Shown: in pieces, positions 713-16,872 of the stretch
Layout of the letters: every line of letters begins with the position of its first letter
Numbering within the stretch: the first letter of the stretch is position 1
From: an uncultured Treponema sp.
GTDB taxonomy: Bacteria > Spirochaetota > Spirochaetia > Treponematales > Treponemataceae
DNA length: 35,742 nt
Reading direction: 5' to 3'
Assembly (NCBI GenBank): GCA_946631855.1
Contig: CAMPAL010000012.1
Coordinates: forward strand, 1-35,742
The notes under the pieces: generated by a model
The model's input: the letters and a program-made list of their open reading frames with translations, nothing else
The model's database searches: none
Told to the model about the DNA's origin: nothing
Program-made: the position numbers and the translations under genes

Positions 713-3700
713 CTAATCCATTATAGACACAGGCAAAATATAGGATGTTGAATCAATTGTAAAAGTATCCCATAAAGCTGCAAGGCCTGTAGCATTCTTT
801 TCAAGAACCCATTCGTTTAATGCATCAAGAACATTAGATTTATTTAATGTATATGCAGAAGCTGCTTCAAATTCTGTTCCTGAAAATAAAAATTTACCAA
901 CAGTTGTAGAATTAATTGGTAAGTCTGTCACCAGTTCTTTGCTCAATACAGAGGTTCCATATGGACCAATCGACATGTTATTATGATAATTATATTGAAG
1001 GCACATAGAATTACATTTTGAAGCATCATCAATTATAGCACCAACAATGGTGCCACAATATGATTCCAGGGAAGACGTGAGCCTTGCAGAACTTATACAA
1101 TTTTCTATATCACAAGCACCTACTAAATCCATATAACCAACAATTCCACCATAACCTTCACTACCATTAATGGTCGAAGTATTTCCTGTTGTTAAAAGGC
1201 CATAAAATGCACAATTTACAACATTAGCATCAGTGTCATACTCACTATACAAACCGCCGATAATTCCACCAACAGCTGCTTTTCCACTTACACTGGCAAA
1301 ACTAACACAGTTATATACATTGACAACTCCTTCTGCTCTACCGATTAATCCGCCGGCATTGGTAATTGTTCCACTTCCAGTAGAATTAAGTCCAGTTACA
1401 GCAACATATGATACACAATTATACATATTAATTGAATATGCATTACAAACTATACCACCAATATTTTCTGCATCAGAAACTCCTGTTGCAGTTATAGAAC
1501 CATTTACAGTAAGATCCTGTATAGTACCCGCTGTAACAGAACCAAACATTCCACGATATTCGGATGCTGAGTATGTAACACTTAAACCGTCAATTGTATG
1601 TTGATGACCATAAAACTGACCTCCAAATGGAGTTGAATTATCTACTGCATTACCAATACAAACCCAGGTATTAGAAATAAGGGTAATATCTTTGTAAAGA
1701 TGTATTTCACGACCAATACAAGCTTCTCCAGAATTAACCCAGTTAGAAATCTGTAGTAACTGACTATAATTAAAGACATTTATAATATTATTATTATTGT
1801 TAATATAATCATACTCAGGGCATGTTTCAGGGAAATTACTTCTTTCCAGCCCTTCATAAGAGACTGGTATAGGATAAGTCATTCCTTCATAAAGGAAAGT
1901 TTTATCCCAGGTATTAAAGCTAGTATCTGTAAGTGTTGAAGAAAGAGTTTCTATTCTACCAGACAAAGTTGAAGAAAGATCTGAAACATCTGTAACAGGA
2001 GTAGCTGTATCGGTAGAAGTAGAAGCGAAAGGTTTTCCTAAATCTGAATCATAATACAAAGCAGAAGCAGAAGCATTTGTTGCTTGTGATACAAGAACAG
2101 AACCGCTACCAATTACAAGACCTGCAGAAATACAGTTATCAACATAAGTCTTAGAACTACCATATGTAATTCCAGATGCATTTGCACAGTTTATATATCC
2201 AAAATTTGCACAATTATAAATATAAGTTGAAGTAGCAACTGTATCTCCAAAGCCAAGGATTCCTGCAACTTTTTCAACATTACCAGAACAAATAATACTG
2301 CCTGAATTTACACAATTTGTAATGATTGTTATATAACCAGCATAACCACAAATTCCACCAATATAAGAAGGAGAAGTTCCCGTTCCTGTGGAATTTACGT
2401 AAATATCTATATCTGAAACACAATTACTAATAGTTCCTGTTGAGCTGGAAGACCCAACAAGACCTCCTGAACAAGCACCTGCAGAACCTGAAGTTGTAAT
2501 TTCTATATTGCCTGAAACATATAAATTTTTAATAGTTCCTGCACCCAGTTTTCCAAAAAATGCTGTATAATTAGCTGATGTCGAAAGATTTAATCCTGTT
2601 ATTTTATTATTCTGTCCATCAAAAATTCCTTTAAATGCATAAGAACCTGAAAATAAAGAGGTTGTCCATTCTTCTGTAAGAGCAATGTCATTAGCCAGAT
2701 AAAACTCATACTTAGAAAAATCATAAGACTGAGAATAATCGCGAAGATTTTTTAAATCTTCTTCGGTAGAAATAAGATAATTACCCTGAACTTTATTGTC
2801 ATTATCATACTCGCTGAATGGATGATATAATTTTTCAATTTTACCTTCATTATCAATTCCCCATATATAACTTTGAGCTGTGGTAAAAATTGAATAATCT
2901 ATATCTTCATCTGAGGTTACTAACTGAAGGCCTTCAGCATAATCTGTATTATAAGTAGCAAGTATAAGTTGAGAATTAGTTACTGCTTCGGAATCTTCAA
3001 TGTGAAGCGTAGGAATAACACTTCCGGAACCTTTATAAAGATAAATACTTTTATCACCTTCAAAAGAACATCCGTCTGAAAGATAGATATCATTTGTTGT
3101 ATATAAATAATAGTTCTTAGTATCGTTAAAAGTTGACTTAGAAAAGTTTATCTCTCCAGAAAAGTGACTATTTGTATATACACGCACTTCATAAAGTCCA
3201 CCAGAAAAAGAACATTCATTAAACGATATAGCCCCACTTATATTAGAAGAGTTTTCATAAGTAATACTTACTCCATAATTAGTTTGTAATGTATTTTCAA
3301 TAGAAGTATTATTAAAATTTATATCCATCTCTAATAAATATGGAGCAATATAAACAAGTCCATTTGAACAATTACTTCCTGTAATACTGGAATTAGAAAC
3401 ATTTACAGTTCCAGCTAAGAGATACATTGCTCCAGCCTGTATAGAAGTTGATGGAGCACACTCAAATTTACAATAATCTACATTTAGAGCACCCGCTCCA
3501 GTAGAATATTGTGTTTTTACACAATAACTTTTTTGAGATACAAGAGTAAGGTTTTTAAGGGTTAATTCCTGAGAGTTTCCAGCTAAAACAAACATCTCTG
3601 ATGTAAAATCAGAAGCTCTGGTAATTACAGCATTATTATCAAGATCAGTTTCGTCTGTATTACCATAAGTTTTTACTACAAGATTTTTTACAGTAGATGT

Positions 3701-4732
3701 ATCAATAGTTTCTGAAAGTTCACAACTGGTACCGGCTTTTATATTTATAGTTGCACTTTCCTTTCCATAACCTTTTGCAACTTCAAAAGCTTCTTCAATT
3801 GTCTGGAATGGATCAAACATAGAACCGTAAGTTCCATTTGTAGTTACAGTCGGATCTACATAATATTCATTCTGACTGGCAAATTGAACATCTGTCTCTG
3901 TAACCTCAAAACTTCCATCATTCTTTATAAAACCTCTGGCAGAAACAGATTTCCAGATATTTGTAATCATAGAATTAAAAACATTAACTCTATCATTATG
4001 TCTTATAATAACATTAGTTGAAGAATCATAAAAAGTAAGACTTAATTCATATATACCAGCAGGTATATCAGATTCAGAAATACTGGCAAGCCCTGAAGTA
4101 ACCGCTCTTACATCACCACCATAAGTTACTGAGCTATCATCAAGATTTGTAAGACTATAAGAATATTGTACAACAGAAGTTCCTTCCACCGTAATTGAAA
4201 GATCAACTTGTCCACTTGAAGAAGTTGTTCCGAAAGCCTCTATAATAATCTTCAAGGGGTCTGCCTGCCCTACTGTGTATTCTGTAGTTCCTTCCAGAAT
4301 TTTATTTTCATCAATACAATCATCTGCACTGGAAGCATTATAAGCAGAAGCTGTTATATCATAAGTACCGCTTTCAATATTCAAGAGAAAGGATCTGCTT
4401 GAACTAGGAGTTGTTGTTATAGTTTCAAGACCAGAATCTCTTGGTACAGCAGTCACAATATACAAAACTGATGCTAAAGGAGATGCTGTTGCCATTCGAG
4501 ACACCGACAGACTTGCAGCTTCTTCTCCATTCACTGCAAGGTCTATTATGTCAGGAACGGCACCTCGAGTTCCAATTGAGCCACTTATTGTGTGATAAAC
4601 TCTCTGGACAGGTTCTTCTGTCTCTGTCGCAGGATTTTCTCCGGATGCTGGAGTATTAATAAGATTAAAACAAGATGTTAAAGAGATTAAAACTACAAAA
4701 AGACTTAATAAAACTGTTAATTTTTTCATCAT
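713..4732 (-). CDS. Large lipoprotein: N-terminal beta-sandwich region, YVDP/beta-helix segment, GLUG-like repeats
   Basis: 1339 aa; signal peptide with lipobox ISLTSC; YVDPTVTTNGTYGSMFDPFQTIEEA; repeated GGLVG/GGICG/GGLIG/GGIIG...NCV motifs; SD ggagag upstream. Confidence 0.85.
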   Translation of the reverse strand: MMKKLTVLLSLFVVLISLTSCFNLINTPASGENPATETEEPVQRVYHTISGSIGTRGAVPDIIDLAVNGEEAASLSVSRMATASPLASVLYIVTAVPRDSGLETITTTPSSSRSFLLNIESGTYDITASAYNASSADDCIDENKILEGTTEYTVGQADPLKIIIEAFGTTSSSGQVDLSITVEGTSVVQYSYSLTNLDDSSVTYGGDVRAVTSGLASISESDIPAGIYELSLTFYDSSTNVIIRHNDRVNVFNSMITNIWKSVSARGFIKNDGSFEVTETDVQFASQNEYYVDPTVTTNGTYGSMFDPFQTIEEAFEVAKGYGKESATINIKAGTSCELSETIDTSTVKNLVVKTYGNTDETDLDNNAVITRASDFTSEMFVLAGNSQELTLKNLTLVSQKSYCVKTQYSTGAGALNVDYCKFECAPSTSIQAGAMYLLAGTVNVSNSSITGSNCSNGLVYIAPYLLEMDINFNNTSIENTLQTNYGVSITYENSSNISGAISFNECSFSGGLYEVRVYTNSHFSGEINFSKSTFNDTKNYYLYTTNDIYLSDGCSFEGDKSIYLYKGSGSVIPTLHIEDSEAVTNSQLILATYNTDYAEGLQLVTSDEDIDYSIFTTAQSYIWGIDNEGKIEKLYHPFSEYDNDNKVQGNYLISTEEDLKNLRDYSQSYDFSKYEFYLANDIALTEEWTTSLFSGSYAFKGIFDGQNNKITGLNLSTSANYTAFFGKLGAGTIKNLYVSGNIEITTSGSAGACSGGLVGSSSSTGTISNCVSDIDIYVNSTGTGTSPSYIGGICGYAGYITIITNCVNSGSIICSGNVEKVAGILGFGDTVATSTYIYNCANFGYINCANASGITYGSSKTYVDNCISAGLVIGSGSVLVSQATNASASALYYDSDLGKPFASTSTDTATPVTDVSDLSSTLSGRIETLSSTLTDTSFNTWDKTFLYEGMTYPIPVSYEGLERSNFPETCPEYDYINNNNNIINVFNYSQLLQISNWVNSGEACIGREIHLYKDITLISNTWVCIGNAVDNSTPFGGQFYGHQHTIDGLSVTYSASEYRGMFGSVTAGTIQDLTVNGSITATGVSDAENIGGIVCNAYSINMYNCVSYVAVTGLNSTGSGTITNAGGLIGRAEGVVNVYNCVSFASVSGKAAVGGIIGGLYSEYDTDANVVNCAFYGLLTTGNTSTINGSEGYGGIVGYMDLVGACDIENCISSARLTSSLESYCGTIVGAIIDDASKCNSMCLQYNYHNNMSIGPYGTSVLSKELVTDLPINSTTVGKFLFSGTEFEAASAYTLNKSNVLDALNEWVLEKNATGLAALWDTFTIDSTSYILPVSIMD

Positions 4733-4740
4733 CTTCTCTC

Positions 4741-7700
4741 CTACTCACTCACTGTAATTGTAAAGGAATCTGTGCAGGCAACTCCATTTAAGGTAGCTCC
4801 TACAGTCAGAGTATATGTTCCAGCCTGATAGAAGACTCCTTCTGAAGTTTCGAAAGTAATAGTCTTTGTTGATTCATCACTTCCATCTGCTAAAACAGCA
4901 CCTGTATTAATTAAATTATTATATAAAAGACTGCACCACCAGTTGCTCAAACTTGTAATTTCATTTCCTGGTGTAAAATCTTCATCTGAATAAGCAGTAA
5001 TTGTCAATGTTTTTTCTGTAGATGTAATAGTTTCAGAACTTAGTTTGAAGTAAATAACTGTTGAAAGAGGATCTGAAATTCCATCATCAACAACCATACC
5101 TTTTATACGAATATGTCCACTTTCATTTATATAATGGGTATCAACATTCATCTTAAAGAAATTTGTAAGGCCGCTCATATCACCTGAGGTCTCTTCTTTT
5201 AAGGCAACTATGTAAGTGGTTGAATCGCTGTCTACATAATTTACTGTGGGAAGTTCCCTGGCCGAAGTAAGTGTGGCATAAGTTTCACCATCATCAGTTG
5301 CTGCAAGTAAATTACTTGCTTCTCTATCAGAAGTTCCAGAACCAAAGGCAAAATAATTTCTTGGAAAAATAAAACCATAAGATGAATTGCTTAAATATAC
5401 ATTTGACAGCCAGCCTTTTCCAGAAACATAAAGACGGCCTGTATTAACAATTGAATATGCAGAAGCGTCATCTAAGCTGAGGGCAGAAGAATCTATTGTA
5501 AAATATCCGGCTGAATTAATATGAATATTCTGACCAGAAACTCCAGAAGTAGCATTACTAACATTATCTTGCATACTTACATTTCGTATAAAACTGTAGT
5601 ATTCCTTCTTACAATCTGAAGCTACAACAATTCCTCCACCATTTCCAGATACACATGTATTGTTATAGATAGAACCTCCATTCATCTGGAATTTTCCACC
5701 TATATAAACAGCTCCTCCAGAAGAACCGGCCTGGTTGCTAAACATATCTGTATCAGATACCAGCACAGTTGAAGGAAGAGTCATATCTGTTGCTGAATTA
5801 CAAATATAAACTGCTCCCCCCTGATTTTGTGCAACATTATTTGAAATTACACAAGAAGAAATATTTACATCACCACAGTCAAGAGAAAGTGCTCCTCCAT
5901 ACGAACCTCTGTTATTCTGAATAACTGTACCCCGTAAAGAAAGGGAGATTAAAGTGCTTTGTATAGTACCGTCAGAATCATCTGTATCAGGTAATAAAGC
6001 AATTGCTCCACCACGACCAGCAGAGGAATTATTACTAATTGTGCAGGATTCAAAAGATGCAGAACTTGTGTCATTAATGAAAACACCACCGCACATAGTA
6101 TCAGATGTATTGTTAGAAATAACTGTATTATAAGCTATAATAGTACTGCCATCTCTTAAAAAAACTGCCCCAGCTTTTGGTGTATAATTATTTTTCACAG
6201 AAAAATCACCTGAATAACCGCCTGAAGCCCCTAAACTAAGTCTTACATTACTTACAGCGTAAATAGCACTTCCATTTCCGGTTACAGAAACATTTCCATC
6301 ACTGGCAGCTTCTCCACCTATCAATCCTTTTGTTAGAGTTAATTCAGAATTTTGTCCTGCAAAGATTCCACCGCCCATAGAGTATGATCTGCAGGCACGA
6401 ATTACATTTGAAGAAGAATTTGAGTAAAGTTTGCCATACACTCTTATTCCACCACCAGGATAAGAAGTTCCTATATTATCATTATTTTGAATAACAACAT
6501 TGCTGTCTAAAGTGAGTTCTGGTAATTCACCAGTTTTATAAAGAACAATAAGACTGCATTCTGATGTATGACCGGTATTAACCCCAGTTCCATTATTTCC
6601 GGCAGGACCATCATCATCCCAGACAGCACCACCATCAAGAATTACATCTTTCAGGGTTGTATCAGTAGTTATTGTAAGAAGTGCATCGCTTGGGAAAGTA
6701 GAATGTCTTATTACGATTACTGGATTTGTACCATCACCATATTTAGAAGTATCTGAAATTCCAGAAGGATTATATGGACTATCTGCACTATCAATTACAA
6801 TTTCATCAAGCACATAAACTTTTTCTGCCAGAGGATTGTCTATTAAGTAAAATTTTGCTTCATCAATTGTTGCAAGAGCCTGGGATGGTGAAAAACCTTT
6901 GTTTGTATCTGAACCAATGCCCACTGATGGAGGATCTACATAAATATATTTGTAGTTCCATTTTGCATAAAATGGTTTTACCCTATCAACAACTCCATCG
7001 CTATCACTATCTTCAAGATATGAAGAAGTCAAAAGTGTGCCATCTGGAATTGCAGTATTACAGTCGTTATCTAAATAAAAACCTGCAAAAGTAACTGTAT
7101 TTCCGTCAGACAAAGGGTAAGTTGCAGTATCAAAAGTATCTGCAGATGGAATTTCCTGACGGTAGGATAATTCATAATAAGTTCCAGTAGCATCTGCGGT
7201 AAATCCATCATAATTTCCAGAATAAGATTTAGGATTTTCTGCATCACTTGAAAAATCATACAAATAAACCCGATATTTTTTTGGAGTCCATTTTGCATAT
7301 AAAACTACATCTTCTTCTTTGCTTCCTGCTGTCCACCCGGTAACAGGACTTCCTGTACAAGCTGAATTATCATACCAGCCGCCAAAATCGTAATGAGGAG
7401 CAAAAGGTTCCTGCAAAGTTACATTTGTTGAAGAATTGTATACATCAATATTTGCACTATTATCAACTTCTTCATCTCCATCACCAGAAACATTATCTGC
7501 ATAAGTAATAGAGTAAGATTTATTTAAATCGGTGTAAGTAACTTCACCACTGGTAGATTGTCCACCAAGAATTTTTACATAATTTACTCGGGTTGCGGTA
7601 GAACTTGACGATGAATCGGTGAAAAACTCCAATCTCAAGAAGTAATATCCCCTTGGAATGTTATTTTCTACAATGCTGACAAAATCACCACTTCCGTCTG

Positions 7701-8370
7701 CGGCTGCTTCTGGAATATATTCTGATTGTGATAAAGTCTGATACTGTTTAGTTCCATCTGAATCAAATGTATAAAGCTGAACTTTTACTTTAGTAACTCC
7801 ATTTAGAGGAAGATTAAATTTTACATCTAAAGTTCCTGCTGTAATTTCTGTTGCTTCATCATTAAAACTGAAGGTAAAATCAAGAGTATTTGTGCCAGAT
7901 GTCCCAGGACTTTCTACATTATTCTTTCTGGCAACAGCATAAATTTTTTCAACACCATCAACCATCTTGTATGCATATAAAGATAAATCCCAGCAGCCAG
8001 GATACAAAACAATTTGATCTGTACCCATCTGACTGATAGAAGTCCAGCTGCCTAAAACTTTTGTTTCTCCAACAGAAAGACCAATATCTTCCTCAGTCAT
8101 ATCTGTTGAAAGTAACTTACCTTTCAAAACATATTTTGAAACCGAAGAACCTGTTTCTCTTGGAGGTCTTAGAGTTCTGCTGACTATATCTGCATTTTCT
8201 TTCCAGTCTGTAACTCTGATTGAAAAATAAAATTTATTATCAGAAGCTGCTGCGGGATTATTTTGAAAATTTGAATTATTTCCATTAATTAAATCTGAAC
8301 ATGAAAAAGTAAAAAATATCAGAGAAAGAATAAAAATCAAATTAAACTTAGAAAAAATCTTTTTTATCAT
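4741..8370 (-). CDS. Large lipoprotein: InlB B-like repeats followed by right-handed beta-helix with GGA[ILV] repeats
   Basis: 1209 aa; lipobox FFTFSC; two GWY...YAKW InlB/Flg_new-like repeats; YVDPPSVGIGSDTNKGFSPSQALATIDEA; repeated NN...GGAI/GGAL/GGAV motifs. Confidence 0.85.
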   Translation of the reverse strand: MIKKIFSKFNLIFILSLIFFTFSCSDLINGNNSNFQNNPAAASDNKFYFSIRVTDWKENADIVSRTLRPPRETGSSVSKYVLKGKLLSTDMTEEDIGLSVGETKVLGSWTSISQMGTDQIVLYPGCWDLSLYAYKMVDGVEKIYAVARKNNVESPGTSGTNTLDFTFSFNDEATEITAGTLDVKFNLPLNGVTKVKVQLYTFDSDGTKQYQTLSQSEYIPEAAADGSGDFVSIVENNIPRGYYFLRLEFFTDSSSSSTATRVNYVKILGGQSTSGEVTYTDLNKSYSITYADNVSGDGDEEVDNSANIDVYNSSTNVTLQEPFAPHYDFGGWYDNSACTGSPVTGWTAGSKEEDVVLYAKWTPKKYRVYLYDFSSDAENPKSYSGNYDGFTADATGTYYELSYRQEIPSADTFDTATYPLSDGNTVTFAGFYLDNDCNTAIPDGTLLTSSYLEDSDSDGVVDRVKPFYAKWNYKYIYVDPPSVGIGSDTNKGFSPSQALATIDEAKFYLIDNPLAEKVYVLDEIVIDSADSPYNPSGISDTSKYGDGTNPVIVIRHSTFPSDALLTITTDTTLKDVILDGGAVWDDDGPAGNNGTGVNTGHTSECSLIVLYKTGELPELTLDSNVVIQNNDNIGTSYPGGGIRVYGKLYSNSSSNVIRACRSYSMGGGIFAGQNSELTLTKGLIGGEAASDGNVSVTGNGSAIYAVSNVRLSLGASGGYSGDFSVKNNYTPKAGAVFLRDGSTIIAYNTVISNNTSDTMCGGVFINDTSSASFESCTISNNSSAGRGGAIALLPDTDDSDGTIQSTLISLSLRGTVIQNNRGSYGGALSLDCGDVNISSCVISNNVAQNQGGAVYICNSATDMTLPSTVLVSDTDMFSNQAGSSGGAVYIGGKFQMNGGSIYNNTCVSGNGGGIVVASDCKKEYYSFIRNVSMQDNVSNATSGVSGQNIHINSAGYFTIDSSALSLDDASAYSIVNTGRLYVSGKGWLSNVYLSNSSYGFIFPRNYFAFGSGTSDREASNLLAATDDGETYATLTSARELPTVNYVDSDSTTYIVALKEETSGDMSGLTNFFKMNVDTHYINESGHIRIKGMVVDDGISDPLSTVIYFKLSSETITSTEKTLTITAYSDEDFTPGNEITSLSNWWCSLLYNNLINTGAVLADGSDESTKTITFETSEGVFYQAGTYTLTVGATLNGVACTDSFTITVSE

Positions 8371-8384
8371 CTTTTCTTATCCCC

Positions 8385-10016
8385 TTAATTTTGAACCTGG
8401 AAGACCTGGTCAGCTGAGAATTGTTCACCATTGTCTGTTACTACTACAACTATACTGTGATATCCTGGACTTAAAGTAACTGTTTGTGAACCAGTAAGAG
8501 AATCTGCTCCAGAAAGTAATTCACCATCCAGTATCCACTGAACAACTATAGAAGTACTGCTTAAACTTGGAGTGTATGTAGCGGCAAAAGATAAAGTTCC
8601 ACCGGTGTAAGAAACACTAGAAATTGTGAGGTCCCCATCACTTTCTTCCGGATAAGCTGGACTGACTCCAGAATTTTCTACCCATCTTGCGTAGAATTCT
8701 TTATTACCTGTCTCAGTGCCTTTTTCCCAGCCAGATACAGAAACCCCTGCAAAAGTAGAAGATTCATACCATCCAATAAATGTATAATCATTTCGAGAAA
8801 TATCTGATACAGAAGGAAGAGTTACAATATCTTCAATTGTATAAGTTGTAACAGGTGAAGCAGACGAATCAAAACTTCCACCGTTTAAATAATATGCAAT
8901 AGAATAAATTTCCCGACTCCACTTTGCATAAATTGTAAGGTCAGACATATTACTTGTTGGGCAAGCTGTTATTTCCTGAGTATATGCAGAATCAAGATAC
9001 CAGCCTTCAAAACTATAACCTTCATGAGAAGCAAGATCTGTAACAGCTGGTAAAACAAAAGGATTGCTTCGGGTATAACTTTCAGGTGGTGTAAAGCCAC
9101 TTCTCCATTCTGGACTTGCATAAGTAATACCATGGTCAAGAACCCAGGTGATGGAATAAGTAATTTCATTCCATACAGCAGTATAAACCGCACTCTGAGC
9201 TGGATATGTTAAACTTGTTGCAGTTGAAGTTTCAGTTGTAGAATCTGCATAAGAAATATTCCAGTGACTAAAACTTGCTCCTTCTGAAGTTCTATCAGGT
9301 ATAGAAACTCCTGTAACAGGCAATCCATAATAACCATACAAATTCAAAGGACTTGTAACTCCATCATTATAATCTACAGTAAGGAATACTTGAATTCTGT
9401 CATAATAAATCAGAACTTCTGTACTTCCATCATATCTGATTGTTTCCTGGAAGAAGGGCTGGGCAAAAAAGCCTGGAACATTAAGGGCCGCTGCTGCAGT
9501 AGAATGATTTGTAACACCAACCAGATTCTGACGTAAAGAAGTATTTTCTTCATATCCATCCATAGTCAGATTCTGGAACATATGTCTTACAACATAAGGA
9601 ATATCATCACGTTCTTCTACAACTCCATAAAACAGATAAGACTTTGTATCAACAAAAACTTGTAAAACCTGCTGATTATCTTCCGAAAGCTGAATTGTAT
9701 CAGGACAGGTATTATCTGCTGTTTCACTAACCCCCAAAAACTTAAAATAAGCTACTTTATAGCCTGGAATAAGCTGGGAAAGTTCTGCCGCAGGGAAAGA
9801 AGACTGATCTATTGTAGTTCCAATTCTAAAATAGCGGACTACATATTCATCAGAAGTTTCATTCAGATAGAATTTAAAAACAGAACAAGTGTCTTTTTCA
9901 AGATCGTTTTTTAAGTCTCCAAACCAGTCGATTGAACAGGAACTTGCGAGGAGGCCTGTCAGAATTAATAAAAGAGAAAAAAATAATGTTCTGGTTTTAT
10001 AAAAAAATCTCTGCAT
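8385..10016 (-). CDS. Lipoprotein with InlB B-like repeats
   Basis: 543 aa; lipobox LLASSC; two clear and one degenerate YSI...GY.F.GWY...YAKW repeats; C-terminal Ig-like region. Confidence 0.85.
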   Translation of the reverse strand: MQRFFYKTRTLFFSLLLILTGLLASSCSIDWFGDLKNDLEKDTCSVFKFYLNETSDEYVVRYFRIGTTIDQSSFPAAELSQLIPGYKVAYFKFLGVSETADNTCPDTIQLSEDNQQVLQVFVDTKSYLFYGVVEERDDIPYVVRHMFQNLTMDGYEENTSLRQNLVGVTNHSTAAAALNVPGFFAQPFFQETIRYDGSTEVLIYYDRIQVFLTVDYNDGVTSPLNLYGYYGLPVTGVSIPDRTSEGASFSHWNISYADSTTETSTATSLTYPAQSAVYTAVWNEITYSITWVLDHGITYASPEWRSGFTPPESYTRSNPFVLPAVTDLASHEGYSFEGWYLDSAYTQEITACPTSNMSDLTIYAKWSREIYSIAYYLNGGSFDSSASPVTTYTIEDIVTLPSVSDISRNDYTFIGWYESSTFAGVSVSGWEKGTETGNKEFYARWVENSGVSPAYPEESDGDLTISSVSYTGGTLSFAATYTPSLSSTSIVVQWILDGELLSGADSLTGSQTVTLSPGYHSIVVVVTDNGEQFSADQVFQVQN

Positions 10017-11755
10017 CAGAATCTGACTCCAAAAGAAACAAAAGGTATTAAACTGCCTGTTGGCATTTCTTCTATAAATGTATGGGTAAAATTAGCTCCA
10101 ATTTCTAAAGCTGCAACATTAACTGGCATAAAGACTAAAGAAAGTTCTCCATCAGCACAAATAAATCCGTAACTATTTGATGAAGTCTGTTTTCTTGTAG
10201 TGTCTTCGGGATAAGAAACATTAATTTGGAAAAGAGAAACTCCCGCACCTGCTTTTACACCAAGATACAACTTATCTTTTATAAGAGAAATTCGTCCTGC
10301 AAGATTCAGACACACATTCTCTTCATTCATAAGATAAGAAATAACAGAATTACTTTTTTCGACATAAGTACCTGTTGCATTTATGTCAAAACCAAATTTG
10401 TTATTTCCAATTTTAACAGGCAGATATGTAAAATCAAATTTTATTGTAGGAAGCACAGGCCATGCAGAAAGACTGTAAAAATTCTTATCATAAATATTCC
10501 AGGTAAGACCACCGCCCAGCTGAATATTGAAATCTGAAACCTGACGATTCAAAATAGCTTCCCATTTCTTCTGACGTGCAAGTTCCTTATCTTCTTCTTT
10601 CTTTTCTTCAGCAAGACGACGTTCTTCTTCGAGTCTTTCCTGTTCTTGTAATTCTTCCTCAATTTTAAGCTGCTTCTGATTTTCCTTAAAGACTTCTTCT
10701 GCTTCTTTTGCTCTTGCCTCTCTTTCGGCAACTGCCTTAGCCCTTTCCTGAGCCTGAAGTTTTTTTGCTTCTATACGTTTTTCAAGATTTTCATCTTCTT
10801 CTTTCATTTTTTCTGCAGCTGCTTTTGCTCTTTCTTCGGCTTCTTTCTGTCTTTGTCGAGTTTCTTCTATCTTTCTATTACGTTCTGCAATTCTTTCTTC
10901 CTGGAGACGACGTTTTTCTTCCTGCTGTCTTCGTTTTTCTTCCGCTGCAAGACGAGCTTCTTCCTGTTTTTTAAGTTCAGCCGCTTTTTTTGCTTCTTCT
11001 GCAAGTCTTTTCTCTTCCAGTTTCTGCTCTTCAAGTCTCTTCTTTTCTTCTTCTTTTTCTAAGATACGGGCTTCTTCTTCGGCTCTTTCCTTATCTATAT
11101 TTTCAGCCACTCTCTGCTCTGTTTTATCTGTACTTTTTGATATTTCAGATTTTTTTTCTTCAATATTGATAACTTCCGAATCTGTACTCAAACCGCTTGG
11201 ATTAGTTACACGAAGCTTCCAGTCCCCCTCTTCTACTTTTGGGAAGACTGCAGAAGCGGCAACTACCTGACCTGAACTTTCTTTTGTTTTCAGAGTACCA
11301 GTTACAACTTCGTTTGTCTGAGTATTTATCAATTCAATACTTGTTTCTTCTTCAATATTTTTAATTTCAACAGGAAGAGAAAGCTTTTCATTTTTATCAA
11401 TTTCTGTTTCCACCACTTTTGGAACAGACACACTAGGTGCAAGGGCCTTAAGAACGGTGAATTTTCTCCATTCACTCACACTTGACTGACGGCCCAGAAA
11501 ATCAAAAGCATAAACTCTATATTCATAATCACCAGACAAAAGATTTACTGAAATTGAATTAGATGAAGTTTGATGTGTAGAAACTTTTCCATCCGAAAGA
11601 TTTTTTATTTCAACTTTATATTCAATGGCGTTTTTATCAGACTGCCATTTTAAAATCTGTTCAAATTTACCCTTAGACTCTGAATACAAAGAGACTGTCT
11701 GTAAAAGAAAAATGAGGAAAATCAAAATGCTGGAAAATCTAAATCTCTTACTCAC
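10016..11755 (-). CDS. Signal peptide - FN3-like domain - long charged helix (TolA-like) - C-terminal beta-barrel domain
   Basis: 579 aa; FN3-like SGDYEYRVYAFDFLGRQSSVSEWRKFTV; ~185 aa E/K/R/A-rich helix; C-terminal amphipathic strands ending SFGVRF (terminal Phe). Confidence 0.8.
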   Translation of the reverse strand: MSKRFRFSSILIFLIFLLQTVSLYSESKGKFEQILKWQSDKNAIEYKVEIKNLSDGKVSTHQTSSNSISVNLLSGDYEYRVYAFDFLGRQSSVSEWRKFTVLKALAPSVSVPKVVETEIDKNEKLSLPVEIKNIEEETSIELINTQTNEVVTGTLKTKESSGQVVAASAVFPKVEEGDWKLRVTNPSGLSTDSEVINIEEKKSEISKSTDKTEQRVAENIDKERAEEEARILEKEEEKKRLEEQKLEEKRLAEEAKKAAELKKQEEARLAAEEKRRQQEEKRRLQEERIAERNRKIEETRQRQKEAEERAKAAAEKMKEEDENLEKRIEAKKLQAQERAKAVAEREARAKEAEEVFKENQKQLKIEEELQEQERLEEERRLAEEKKEEDKELARQKKWEAILNRQVSDFNIQLGGGLTWNIYDKNFYSLSAWPVLPTIKFDFTYLPVKIGNNKFGFDINATGTYVEKSNSVISYLMNEENVCLNLAGRISLIKDKLYLGVKAGAGVSLFQINVSYPEDTTRKQTSSNSYGFICADGELSLVFMPVNVAALEIGANFTHTFIEEMPTGSLIPFVSFGVRF

Positions 11756-14567
11756 CGTACAGTTTTCCCGGGTCTATTGTTTCAATCTTTCCTGGCAATT
11801 CAAATTTAATTTTGAAATTACCGCCTGCTGCTTTACTGCTCTGTTCTTCAAAACCATCACGTGCATGAACATAAGCTGTAACATTCCATTCAAAATCTCC
11901 AATATCAAGTATTGAAAGATCTTTTATTTTTACTTCAGAATTTCTAAGGTTCTTTGCCTCATAAATTCTCTTCAAACTTCCATTTGGATTTACATAATAA
12001 AGTGTAAATTTATAATCGGTAGCACCAGCAACATCAGCCCAGTCAAAACTGATATTTCTGTTCTTTTTAAGATATTCAGAATCAATTACCTGTGTCTGAG
12101 AAGGAGAAACCAACCTTGGTGAAGCAAGTTCTGGAACCGGTCTTACTTCAAATGAATAAGTTTCCTGAGCATCAAGAGGAATTCCTTCTGCTGAACTTGC
12201 ACGAATTGTCCACTGATAATTTCCTGCTTCCAGTCTTTCAAGACTAATCTGATTTCTAGGATTATTGATAGTCTTTACTACCTTCATAGTTCCATTTGCT
12301 TGATGTTTTCTCAGAACAAATTCTGAACGGGCAACTTTATCACCCTGTCTCCAGACTAATACAGTTGGACTACGAAGTGCTGTGAGTCCCTGAATACTTG
12401 CATTATTTGCAGGAGAAACCAGATGTACCGGATCTGGCCCACGAATAGTAAAATTAACTTCGGAAATATGACTGCTTCTTCTTGGAGCAATTTCTGTTTC
12501 TTCACTGAAGGCCTGAACAGTTCCCCTGTAACTTTCTGGAGGCAAAGCGATATTGGCAAAATTTTCCCGGGTAGAAGAAACTTCTTTTACAAGTTTATTG
12601 TTATTTCCATAAATCTTAACTTTGTAATAATCAGCCTCTCTTACTGGAGCCCAGGCAATTCTTACCCTTCCTTCACCATAAACAGTTAATGTTGAAGAAG
12701 CCAAAGGTGAAGTAATATTTGGTCTTGCAAGAGGATTCAAAACAGAAAGACTTCTTGGACTTGTATAAATTAATTCACCAGTTAATGGGTTTTCAATTGC
12801 AACTCGCCAGTAATAACTTCCTGCATTAAGACTTACATCTCTAACTTCAGGAACGCTGCTTCTTATCTCTTTCAAATCCTGCTTAAAATCTGAAGATGAA
12901 GAAATCTGGAAAATTGAAGTTATATTTCCACGGTTATATTCAGGAGCTAACTTCCAGCTGAACACAGTAGCAAGAAGTTTCTCTTTTTCAGCAGCAAACG
13001 CATCTGGTGGATAAACCAGTTTATTTTCCCCAGGAACATATTCTTCAACTCTGAAAGATCTTACATCAGAGGAAACAGGCACTTTATCAGAAGGAGAAGT
13101 TCTTACAACCCTCCAGTAGTAAGTTCCCTGAGGAAGACTTTCCAAAGTAAAATTATCTGTTACACGAGTTAGTTTAGTTGTTTTTTCGTAAACATCATCC
13201 TTAAAAGCCTGATCTTTTGCGACTTCCAGTTTATACTCAGCCGATTTTGCGTCAGATTTCCACTGGAAAGTTACAGGACTAACCTTCATAGGACTAAAAG
13301 TCAATTTACCTTTATGAGCAGGAATACTTAATTTTGGTGGAAGGACTTCTGCAAGTTTTTCAACAGAGAAAGATGATATTGCAGAAGATTTTCCGTCCCC
13401 GATAGAATTTACTTTATAATAAGGAGTAATTCGCCAGTAATAAGTTCCCTGACCAAGTTTTTTCAAAGTGAACTGTTCATTTGTAATATCATCAGAAATA
13501 ATAGGATTAGACAAATCCTGAGAGGCAGAAACTTCAAGATGATAATGTTCTGCATAATCATTTCCAGACCAGGCCAGCTGAACGGCAGGAAAATCTTCTT
13601 CATGATAACTAAAAGAAGAGCCCCGCACTGGTGATTTTAAAACTACAGGAGCAACGGCTTCAACAGTAATTCTACCGCTTGAACCAAGAGCCTTCTGTCC
13701 CTGAGGGTAAACTCTCCAGTACAATCTTCCAAGCGGAGAATCAATCTTAATTTCATTTTTATTATTTACCGAATAAGTGTTCTGTATTTTGCTGAAATCT
13801 TTATCAAAAGAAGTTTCTACTGTAATACTATCTTTTTCATATTCACCAGAAGCTGTCCATTTCAGAAGGACTGGAATAGATTTTTCCTGATTAAAAGCCA
13901 GAAGTTTTGTATCGCTTGAAATTGAAGTAACTGTCAAAGGTTCTTTTTTAATTTCTCCGGAAGAAGCAACTTTTACAGTTTCACCCGAAGTTAATACCTG
14001 AGCCTGTTCTCTTCCATCGGCAGAATGACTTGTTACAGTTGCATTTCCAGCCTGAAGCTTAAAACTGTTATCTCCGGAAGAAGAATTTGTGGCTGCAGAA
14101 AGTTTACTTCCTTTATCAAGCTTAAAGACAGAACCATTTTCCATTGCAAGAGAAACAGATTTCTGCTCGCTGGATGCAGTTGTATCAAGTTCGATATTAC
14201 CGTCATTAACAGAAAGGGTTAAACCTTTTTCTTTTGTGTAAGAAACCTGAATCATGGTATTTTCATGCAAATCAAGAACTGTACCATCTTCAAAGGTGAT
14301 TTTTGCAGTCGCACCATCTGCGGTACGGATTGTATCTGAATCATAAAGAGGAGAATTCTGCTGTAATCTTTCCCAGACAACCCGATCATTGTATTTTCGC
14401 TGGGCTATCTTACGTTTAAATTCAATTTTTGCAATCTGATCTTTATCTTTTCGAGAAGAACTGCTGTTCAGGTCTTTCCAGAACATATAAATACTTGCAG
14501 CACAAACTCCTGAACAGATGATTACAATAAGAAAATCACGTAGCCTTAATCTTGCTTTCTTCTGCAT
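11748..14567 (-). CDS. FecR-domain protein with N-terminal TM and tandem FN3-like repeats
   Basis: 939 aa; TM near N-terminus; FecR-like VWERLQQNSPLYDSDTIRTADGATAKITFEDGTVLDLHENTMIQV; repeated G.YYWRV motifs. Confidence 0.85.
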   Translation of the reverse strand: MQKKARLRLRDFLIVIICSGVCAASIYMFWKDLNSSSSRKDKDQIAKIEFKRKIAQRKYNDRVVWERLQQNSPLYDSDTIRTADGATAKITFEDGTVLDLHENTMIQVSYTKEKGLTLSVNDGNIELDTTASSEQKSVSLAMENGSVFKLDKGSKLSAATNSSSGDNSFKLQAGNATVTSHSADGREQAQVLTSGETVKVASSGEIKKEPLTVTSISSDTKLLAFNQEKSIPVLLKWTASGEYEKDSITVETSFDKDFSKIQNTYSVNNKNEIKIDSPLGRLYWRVYPQGQKALGSSGRITVEAVAPVVLKSPVRGSSFSYHEEDFPAVQLAWSGNDYAEHYHLEVSASQDLSNPIISDDITNEQFTLKKLGQGTYYWRITPYYKVNSIGDGKSSAISSFSVEKLAEVLPPKLSIPAHKGKLTFSPMKVSPVTFQWKSDAKSAEYKLEVAKDQAFKDDVYEKTTKLTRVTDNFTLESLPQGTYYWRVVRTSPSDKVPVSSDVRSFRVEEYVPGENKLVYPPDAFAAEKEKLLATVFSWKLAPEYNRGNITSIFQISSSSDFKQDLKEIRSSVPEVRDVSLNAGSYYWRVAIENPLTGELIYTSPRSLSVLNPLARPNITSPLASSTLTVYGEGRVRIAWAPVREADYYKVKIYGNNNKLVKEVSSTRENFANIALPPESYRGTVQAFSEETEIAPRRSSHISEVNFTIRGPDPVHLVSPANNASIQGLTALRSPTVLVWRQGDKVARSEFVLRKHQANGTMKVVKTINNPRNQISLERLEAGNYQWTIRASSAEGIPLDAQETYSFEVRPVPELASPRLVSPSQTQVIDSEYLKKNRNISFDWADVAGATDYKFTLYYVNPNGSLKRIYEAKNLRNSEVKIKDLSILDIGDFEWNVTAYVHARDGFEEQSSKAAGGNFKIKFELPGKIETIDPGKLYGE

Positions 14568-16833
14568 CTAAGTTTACTTCTCCAAAATCAGGAGTTGGAA
14601 TTCCTAACAAAGTTCTAACTTCTGCCAGTGTTTTTGGACCTTTTGAACCAATGGCACGGGCACAATCAGGATCAAGTTTGAATTTAGGGTCTCCTTTTCT
14701 AAAGAAACCTTCAATATCAAACTGAGGCATATTTACAACTCCATAGAAATGCTGTTTACCCTTTCCTTTTACTTCAAAAGTAACAGGAATTACTTCAACA
14801 ACAACTTCATATTTAAGATTTTCAGGTTTAATTTTATAATTATTTTCAGGACAACGAATAAAATCTTTCTTTAACAAATCATAAGTATCCTGAGTGATTA
14901 ACATATCAGTTCCACAAGGTTTATTTGATGATTCTGTACGACTGGCAAGGTTTACGGCATCACCAATAGAAGTAAATTCCATCTTGTCGTAAGAACCCAT
15001 AAAACCAACTGTAGCACGACCAGAATTTAAGCCGGAACCAATGCGGATATGAGGTTTATACTTTGCATAAGGTTCGCCTTCATGAGCTTTGGTGAAAGCT
15101 TCTGCCTTTTTGTTATATTCCATCAGAGCATAACGCATGGCAGTTGTTGCCATAATAGCACTTACAGCATCCTGTTTTACATGTTTTTCATGAATTGCCT
15201 TAAATTTTGCCTTACGAGGATCAGAATCAGGCCATTTTTCATAATCCAGGCTGTCATCACGCAGAACGCCCCAGCAGGCCATGATGGCATCACCTTCAAA
15301 CTTATCAACATTTCCACCAGAAATAGAAATACAGTTTACCATACGGCCCATGTAATCATTCAAAAATCCGATGATTTCTCCCGCAGACTTTTCACCAAAA
15401 CGCTTGTTGAATCCATCAGAAATTGCAGTAAAGCCTCGAATATCTGAGAAGAAAATTGTGATATCTTTCAAATGTGGCTGGAAGTCAATTTTATGAGTAA
15501 CAATAGCTCTTGTAACTCCCTTATTGGTCAACCGGGTAAAAGTATTAAGGATTTCCTGTTCCGCTTTTGTAGAACGAATAAGAACACCAATTTCATCCTT
15601 TCGCTTTGTCTTAAGCTGATTTAAAAGAGGTGTTTCAAAATTACCGGCATTAATCTCGTTTGTAACCGCAGTAAGTTCTTTAAGTGGTGTACTCAAAGAT
15701 TTAGAAAAGAACCATACAATCATAATTGCGATTGAAAGAATGGCAATTGTAAGATAAACATTTCGACGGGTGGTTGCATTTACTGCTTCAAGTACTATTC
15801 GGGTCTGAACTTCAGTTATAACAGCACAACCTGCAAAAGTTAATTTTGTAAAAGCACCAATATATTCTACATCTTCAGTATTAACATAAGTAAGCTGTTC
15901 ACTTCCTGTTTTTGCAGAAGGAAGAAGTTTTACCAGATAATGATCCCGATATTCTGCTGCCCTTTTCATAAGGTCCAGGTCAGGGTGAACAATAATTGTA
16001 CCGTCATCATTAACTAAGAATGAAAGATTTATAGAACTGGTTGAATAAGATTCAGAAAGATCTTCCAGAGATGAATAAATTACAACTACATCATTATTAT
16101 CATCTGAGCGAATTGGTGTAAAAATTGCCACAATCTGTTCACCAAAAAAAGGAGTTGCATTCATAACTGAAACAATTCCATTTTTTGCACGGTCAACTTT
16201 TTCACTTTCCTGTTCTGAATAAAGATTTACAAGTTCTGAATCCAGCTCATGAGCAGCAAAGTAAGCTCTGTTCACAAAAACATCATCATCATAAATAAAT
16301 TTAAAAGCGACGATTCCTTTGTTTCTTTCAAAAAAACGGGCTGCCTTATTCTGCAACTCTTCTTTTTCATCATCAGAAGAAATATTGTCATAAAACATTC
16401 CGACAGAAGAAACAATCGAATTAAAACGACTTTCTGTATCTGCGGCTGTACGACTGTTAATTGTCAGGTTGTTTTCTTCGGCATTAACCCTTACATCAGA
16501 AGAAATGTAATAAGATACAAGAACTGTAATTAAAATAAGGGAAAGACTTACAATGGCGGATATAATTCCAATCAATTTTCCACCAATTGAATATCTCGAC
16601 TTAACTGAACTTACAGTCTTCTTTTTATTCTTTACAAAATCCGCTGGCCTGGCGGCAGAATAAGTTTTTGAACTCTCAACTTTTTTGTCCACTACAGGAG
16701 TTTTTTTTACAATTTGTTTTTTAACTTCAGTACTTTCTGGACTTATCTGCTTAAGAATTGAAACTGATTCATCATTCCCGGCAGGCTTACCTCTGGGAAC
16801 AAAGGAGCCATAATTAATATCATTCTTACTCAC
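14536..16833 (-). CDS. Class III adenylate/guanylate cyclase with N-terminal TM, Cache-like sensor and HAMP
   Basis: FFSDIRGFT, GGNVDKFEGDAIMACWG and FTSIGDAVNLASRTESSNK catalytic motifs; HAMP-like region after second TM. GTG at 16833 (MSKNDINYGS...) preferred over the track's TTG at 16872, which coincides with the -35 box. Confidence 0.88.
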   Translation of the reverse strand: MSKNDINYGSFVPRGKPAGNDESVSILKQISPESTEVKKQIVKKTPVVDKKVESSKTYSAARPADFVKNKKKTVSSVKSRYSIGGKLIGIISAIVSLSLILITVLVSYYISSDVRVNAEENNLTINSRTAADTESRFNSIVSSVGMFYDNISSDDEKEELQNKAARFFERNKGIVAFKFIYDDDVFVNRAYFAAHELDSELVNLYSEQESEKVDRAKNGIVSVMNATPFFGEQIVAIFTPIRSDDNNDVVVIYSSLEDLSESYSTSSINLSFLVNDDGTIIVHPDLDLMKRAAEYRDHYLVKLLPSAKTGSEQLTYVNTEDVEYIGAFTKLTFAGCAVITEVQTRIVLEAVNATTRRNVYLTIAILSIAIMIVWFFSKSLSTPLKELTAVTNEINAGNFETPLLNQLKTKRKDEIGVLIRSTKAEQEILNTFTRLTNKGVTRAIVTHKIDFQPHLKDITIFFSDIRGFTAISDGFNKRFGEKSAGEIIGFLNDYMGRMVNCISISGGNVDKFEGDAIMACWGVLRDDSLDYEKWPDSDPRKAKFKAIHEKHVKQDAVSAIMATTAMRYALMEYNKKAEAFTKAHEGEPYAKYKPHIRIGSGLNSGRATVGFMGSYDKMEFTSIGDAVNLASRTESSNKPCGTDMLITQDTYDLLKKDFIRCPENNYKIKPENLKYEVVVEVIPVTFEVKGKGKQHFYGVVNMPQFDIEGFFRKGDPKFKLDPDCARAIGSKGPKTLAEVRTLLGIPTPDFGEVNLDAEESKIKAT

Positions 16834-16843
16834 AATAGCAAAA

Positions 16844-16872
16844 ATTATACTATATAAGCCACATTTAAACAA
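16844..16872 (-). promoter_or_regulatory. Putative promoter of the cyclase-led six-gene cassette
   Basis: Minus strand TTGTTT (16867-16872), 17 nt, TATAAT (16844-16849); only 10 nt between -10 and GTG. Confidence 0.65.

Follow-up and report, generated by a model that had tools for sequence, protein, structure and literature searches.

Analysis of a 35,742-nucleotide stretch from an uncultured Treponema sp. (the window) revealed that its conserved feature is a trio of genes encoding a membrane adenylate cyclase, a FecR/multi-FN3 protein and a protein that joins an FN3-Ig head to an outer-membrane-type β-barrel. The individual parts are already known; their combination and its phylum-wide conservation appear to be undescribed in the literature searched, in which we found no paper on a FecR-cyclase or FecR-FN3 pairing in Treponema or other spirochetes. 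The long charged helix that joins head and barrel in the window protein is not a conserved feature: it is dispensable and one of several ways of lengthening the arm. An earlier note, made from the sequence of the window, had described the barrel protein as a possible periplasm-spanning tether pointing toward the adjacent FecR/FN3 protein. Gene order, co-occurrence, the variability and exchange of the linker and, by prediction, the domain anatomy were computed here. The features are as follows.

14536..16872, minus strand: dCache-HAMP-class III adenylate/guanylate cyclase (Guanylate_cyc 4.2e-13, HAMP 9.6e-7)
11748..14567, minus strand: FecR-domain and multi-FN3/Ig protein with putative N-terminal membrane anchor (Pfam FecR, PF04773, 2.8e-12)
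10016-11755, minus strand: barrel-protein ORF, GTG start, 579 aa
11675..11755, minus strand: predicted signal sequence, residues 1-27, from the GTG start (sequence; hydrophobic helix 6-23 in the AF2 model)
11453..11659, minus strand: FN3-like domain, residues 33-101 (strands in the AF2 model)
11156..11434, minus strand: second Ig/TIG-like sandwich, residues 108-200 (strands in the AF2 model)
10547..11107, minus strand: charged helix linker, residues 217-403 (length and kind differ among relatives)
10019..10540, minus strand: predicted C-terminal eight-stranded outer-membrane β-barrel, residues 406-579, ending in Phe (AF2 and fold matches)

Conservation of the Gene Trio

The three genes overlap in the window, by 32 bp between the cyclase and FecR genes and by 8 bp between the FecR and barrel genes. 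The cyclase ORF has a TTG start as listed, its true start possibly lying further in, and its dCache_1 match (1.9e-7) falls below the Pfam cut-off; from its sequence, the FecR protein is judged to carry an inner-membrane anchor. The order cyclase, FecR/FN3, FN3-Ig(-barrel), with ends overlapping or nearly touching, was found in all 20 Treponemataceae loci first fetched, and at least 102 of the 111 barrel loci listed have the FecR gene directly upstream on the same strand. A family survey of 145 Treponemataceae genomes with a whole-protein profile (A1) produced matches in 97 genomes, spread through 14 of 20 genera. Both FecR and barrel genes were present in 97 genomes, FecR alone in 11, the barrel alone in none and neither in 37 (Fisher p about 5e-25, uncorrected for relatedness). 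Three FecR-only genomes, all from genus g13, retain the cyclase and FecR genes intact with the third gene gone.

Elsewhere in the phylum, the trio was present in 16 out of 16 spirochete loci, which had been picked by the FN3-Ig gene and not by synteny; 15 exhibit the same order, and in the remaining locus the FN3-Ig gene is divergent and lies beside the cyclase. The link to the neighboring FecR/FN3 gene, which the earlier note had offered as a possibility, proved much stronger than could be seen from the sequence of the window.

Outside Treponemataceae, the C-termini of the third protein are diverse. Barrels were found in L089-L093 and L096, an apparently larger barrel-like C-terminal sequence in L099, and in L100 a C-terminus that matches no identified module, whereas in the Leptospira-type loci L085-L088 and L097 this FN3-Ig head is followed by a DUF5683-like helical LPGWGQ module (the DUF5683 match exceeds the cut-off in L086 and L088). 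The barrel end is therefore not universal, since this module replaces it in the Leptospira-type relatives. The head of the window protein matches the Leptospira LIC11435 family (NCBIfam NF047756) at 2e-18, with 66.4 bits against a curated cut-off of 380, which places it outside the family and suggests a distant relationship by sequence. The closest relatives of NF047756 in the genomes searched are also encoded downstream of FecR and cyclase genes, but end in the DUF5683-like helical module and not in a barrel.

Some loci depart from the three-gene layout. In the nearly complete genome G066, cyclase and FecR form a single 1596-aa ORF (L036:4201-8988) whose topology is compatible with a real fusion, a single case that serves as a lead only; a FecR-barrel single ORF in G018 was rejected as a real fusion because a signal sequence in its interior would be incompatible with the topology. 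At L044:1938-4256 and L034:2704-4595 the cyclase is divided between two ORFs, by frameshift or assembly error, and G104 has two separate neighboring genes (L040:7216-8097 and 8570-9373), one encoding the FN3-Ig part and the other a barrel together with a degenerate FN3 of its own. A second match in the genome of the window itself (C70, L002) was taken as a low-complexity match and not as a paralog, because its sequence resembles the P83/100 protein encoded beside the T. pallidum trio.

Domain Architecture and Membrane Topology

The window protein, for which a Pfam search matched no family, was modeled with AlphaFold2 (AF2) from an alignment of 26 sequences. The model lends good support to a predicted anatomy of signal sequence, FN3 domain, Ig-like domain, charged linker and eight-stranded barrel. 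The signal peptide proposed in the earlier note was borne out by the sequence together with the predicted hydrophobic helix, and is judged to be a probable signal sequence on these grounds. Its single FN3-like module was recovered, with strands at residues 33-101, but a second Ig-like domain, with strands at 108-200, had been overlooked. Residues 31-201 aligned with tandem FN3 structures in the PDB at Z 9.9, but with an rmsd of 8.1, and a weak match of a distant homolog to Pfam TIG (E 0.0044) supports the second, Ig/TIG-like domain.

Toward the C-terminus, eight barrel strands were placed by AF2 within residues 408-578, with pLDDT of about 74-97 for the block. The modeled barrel superposed on the transmembrane domain of OmpA with Z 18.8 and rmsd 2.5 over 157 residues, and matched the folds of OmpW (Z 17.2) and NspA (Z 17.5), the three giving an overall range of Z 16-19. 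The predicted structure hence contains, with confidence, the C-terminal barrel that the earlier note had proposed, and whose absence it had named as fatal to its reading. Homologs of the window protein match Pfam OMP_b-brl and PagL weakly, and a sequence search of the PDB with the barrel profile returned no match. The barrel fold is the sole feature in common with the OmpA family, as the OmpA-like peptidoglycan-binding domain has no Pfam match in the window protein.

In the modeled barrel, a single face holds both termini and the short turns, which measure 2, 3 and 5 residues. In known eight-stranded outer-membrane proteins, the face bearing the termini and the short turns is periplasmic. Because the barrel termini and the three short turns would, by this canonical topology, face the periplasm, we infer that the barrel sits in the outer membrane with head and helix on its periplasmic side, as expected from the inward-pointing head of the earlier note.

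A Putative Route from the Outer Membrane to the Cyclase

The arrangement that we consider moderately probable is that of an outer-membrane anchor or receptor presenting its FN3-Ig head to a cyclase-coupled FecR protein. The eight-stranded barrel would be seated in the outer membrane and the head would hang in the periplasm, in the window lineage on a single charged helix up to about 28 nm long, which would act as an adjustable reach extender and not as a fixed ruler. The docking site of the head would be the FN3-rich region that the FecR protein, encoded by the overlapping upstream gene, exposes to the periplasm; the FecR protein would be anchored in the inner membrane and work with the dCache-HAMP cyclase. 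We infer here the contacts between head and FecR protein and between FecR protein and cyclase, as well as the direction of signaling and any ligand. In this way the trio would couple cyclase activity to the outer membrane and possibly to the cell surface, and it may relay information from the surface to an enzyme inside the cell that makes cAMP.

The Fec system likewise pairs an outer-membrane protein bearing an N-terminal periplasmic part with an inner-membrane FecR-domain protein. The trio resembles FecA-FecR-FecI in having an outer-membrane protein with a periplasmic N-terminal part and a FecR-domain protein, the latter encoded next to the barrel gene in the window, and differs from it in three respects: a small eight-stranded barrel stands where Fec has a TonB-dependent receptor, FN3-Ig stands where Fec has an STN domain, and a cyclase gene lies next to FecR where Fec has a sigma-factor gene, none being adjacent at the window locus. 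A more ambitious reading, in which the trio is an ancient spirochete trans-envelope pathway running from barrel loops that bind ligands of host or environment, fibronectin in T. pallidum being an example, through the FN3-Ig head and the FecR-type protein into a class III cyclase, Fec-like with cyclic nucleotides replacing the sigma factor, is tentative and on balance doubtful. Against a signaling trio in general, the genes could lie side by side simply because they are regulated together, the cyclase, with a Cache sensor of its own, may act without partners, and one lineage (g13) keeps cyclase and FecR without the barrel gene. If correct, the signaling model would define a phylum-wide envelope system, taking in three syphilis proteins without known joint function.

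The main rival to this model is a purely mechanical tether, in which the barrel fastens the outer membrane either to peptidoglycan or to its FecR/FN3 neighbor and the cyclase is merely co-transcribed. The OmpA-like barrel and linkers long enough to reach through the periplasm are in keeping with it, and helix-barrel tethers have precedents in SlpA (PMC9388160) and OmpM (PMC10628300), where an N-terminal periplasmic part is followed by a long helix and a C-terminal outer-membrane barrel. The window protein has the same domain order, which is consequently less unusual than the earlier note had supposed. SlpA and OmpM, however, carry SLH domains, and SlpA has a trimeric coiled coil and 30-stranded barrels, whereas the window protein has FN3-Ig, a charged helix without heptads (p = 0.10) and eight strands. 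Pfam detected no SLH, OmpA C-terminal or other peptidoglycan-binding domain in it, the majority of the family has no linker, so that the head would stay close to the outer membrane, and the cyclase gene accompanies the other two in every locus sampled across the phylum. Taken on these points, a tether without signaling is rather unlikely.

TP0483 as the Treponema pallidum Counterpart

The T. pallidum trio is TP0485-TP0484-TP0483, in the same three-gene order; TP0484 matches PF04773 at 1e-12, and the third gene of the trio in G020 carries both published Tp0483 fibronectin-binding peptides exactly. TP0483 is the counterpart of the window protein, as it occupies the same position in the trio, has a homologous FN3-Ig head and is predicted to end in an eight-stranded barrel; it differs in having no linker helix and in its very divergent sequence, which gives it a long branch. 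Its AF2 model, built with 25 relatives, exhibits the same head and an eight-stranded barrel at 216-373 (OmpA Z 17.6), and its head falls just below the Pfam fn3 cut-off (7.4e-5). The two proteins align by blastp with 34% identity (E 1.6e-7). Profiles built without either of them recovered the window protein and TP0483 at 2.6e-26 and 2.8e-11 with the head HMM, and at 2.5e-19 and 9e-4 with the barrel HMM, the TP0483 barrel scoring 15.2 bits where the highest-scoring of 200 shuffles reached 4.7; by sequence alone, the tie of this barrel to the family is weak.

TP0483 was previously known solely as a fibronectin- and laminin-binding protein, and a 2023 review describes its structure as little known and its outer-membrane location as disputed (PMC10118025). 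It is not named in the T. pallidum OMPeome papers checked, and those listing eight-stranded barrels give four others. Two fibronectin-binding peptides have been published (PMC4368718), of which 316-333 also appears in PMC10118025. In our model, peptide 274-289 runs from the last part of strand 3 through loop 2 into the beginning of strand 4, and 316-333 takes in loop 3 and strand 6, so that the binding peptides are predicted to map at L2 and L3 on the extracellular side, which is where a periplasmic head would lead one to expect them. If true, the barrel and its fibronectin-binding loops would lie in the outer membrane and the head in the periplasm, which addresses the disputed location and makes TP0483 a candidate fifth eight-stranded outer-membrane protein of T. 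pallidum.

The in vitro binding of fibronectin and laminin reported for TP0483 (PMC4368718, PMC10118025), along with a barrel fold common to the adhesins Ail and OpcA in our fold comparison, could be read as a sign that the family mainly binds host matrix, with head and helix displayed outside the cell as in an autotransporter or trimeric adhesin. We consider this highly unlikely, as an eight-stranded barrel is no known passenger translocator, the position of the short turns and of both termini identifies the side of the head as the periplasmic one, the TP0483 binding peptides that have been mapped fall in the barrel and not in the head, and many spirochetes keep the gene next to those of partners in the periplasm and cytoplasm. 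The surface loops could nevertheless be adhesive even without a head outside the cell.

The gene preceding the T. pallidum trio (L033:8973-10565) encodes a P83/100 protein (Pfam E 4e-233) with a long Q/A/E/R-rich helical stretch.

The Charged Helix and Its Replacement among Relatives

The longest stretch of the window protein with zero Pro or Gly spans 225 aa (residues 189-413), and charged residues make up 61%, large hydrophobic ones 15%, of the segment 213-402. Compared with 5000 shuffles of the same residues, opposite-charge pairs are in excess at i+3 (z 5.3) and i+4 (z 2.3), and a heptad (3.5-residue) periodicity of the charged stretch is not significant (p = 0.10). A coiled coil was rejected on this last ground; because charge pairs are in excess and heptads are not significant, the sequence shows the pattern of a single charged helix, the outcome of the coiled-coil/single-helix check that the earlier note had suggested. 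AF2 predicts helix at 217-327 and 338-403 with pLDDT of about 50-88 and a minimum around 320-345, a model of moderate confidence with one low-confidence break. The long charged helix described earlier as uninterrupted is hence predicted with one weak spot, and not as the short globular pieces that would have counted against it.

Of the 57 proteins in the tree, 36 have essentially no linker (about 0 residues) between Ig domain and barrel; in the remainder it measures 47-275 residues, with one outlier of 436 (G110). The value for TP0483 was a partial-match artefact and was set to 0. The linker-bearing members all fall in one tree group with four linker-free members nested inside, which requires a minimum of three changes and is consistent with a single gain and two losses; support for some of the branches in question is weak. 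The kind of linker also changes: it is disordered and S/T/E/P-rich in G110, (E/P)n-rich over about 150-170 residues in L093 (G204, from another family of the order), and built of repeat-like units in L028 (AEEERLAKEEAERK repeats). The FecR protein, on the other hand, measures 926-965 residues whatever the linker length, with no compensation between the two (rho -0.07, p 0.76, 24 loci). Since the linker ranges over 0-275 residues or is replaced while FecR length holds steady, it is reach, not sequence, that varies.

As an essential ruler or tether, the helix was accordingly rejected, being absent in most of the relatives that keep the gene trio, apparently lost twice, and replaced by disordered or (E/P)n linkers. 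A similar exchange of helical, proline-rich and disordered periplasmic spacers by clade is reported for TolA and TonB (PMC12204202), which differ in having an inner-membrane anchor and a motor, the window protein being anchored in the outer membrane by its predicted barrel and lacking a Pfam match to the TolA C-terminal domain. That the long helix is a low-complexity expansion without selected role, as its widely varying length, repeat-like units and two losses by fewest changes might indicate, is very improbable in view of the charge pairing above shuffles and of the other linker kinds at the same position in G110 and G204, which suggest that extension itself is favored. Comprising no linker, charged helix, disordered and E/P forms within one family, this series offers a natural test of periplasmic spacer requirements.

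Two loci of genus g8 (L035:5656-11085 and L037:7043-12784) encode FecR proteins of about 1810-1914 aa with FN3 arrays roughly doubled, and their barrel proteins have no linker. Downstream of the barrel gene, the window carries three large secreted or lipoprotein-like genes (713-10016, minus strand) with List_Bact_rpt (InlB-type), Chlamydia PMP-like or GLUG repeats, and InlB-repeat genes also follow the barrel gene in the linker-bearing or nested relatives L039, L044, L045, L046 and L051.
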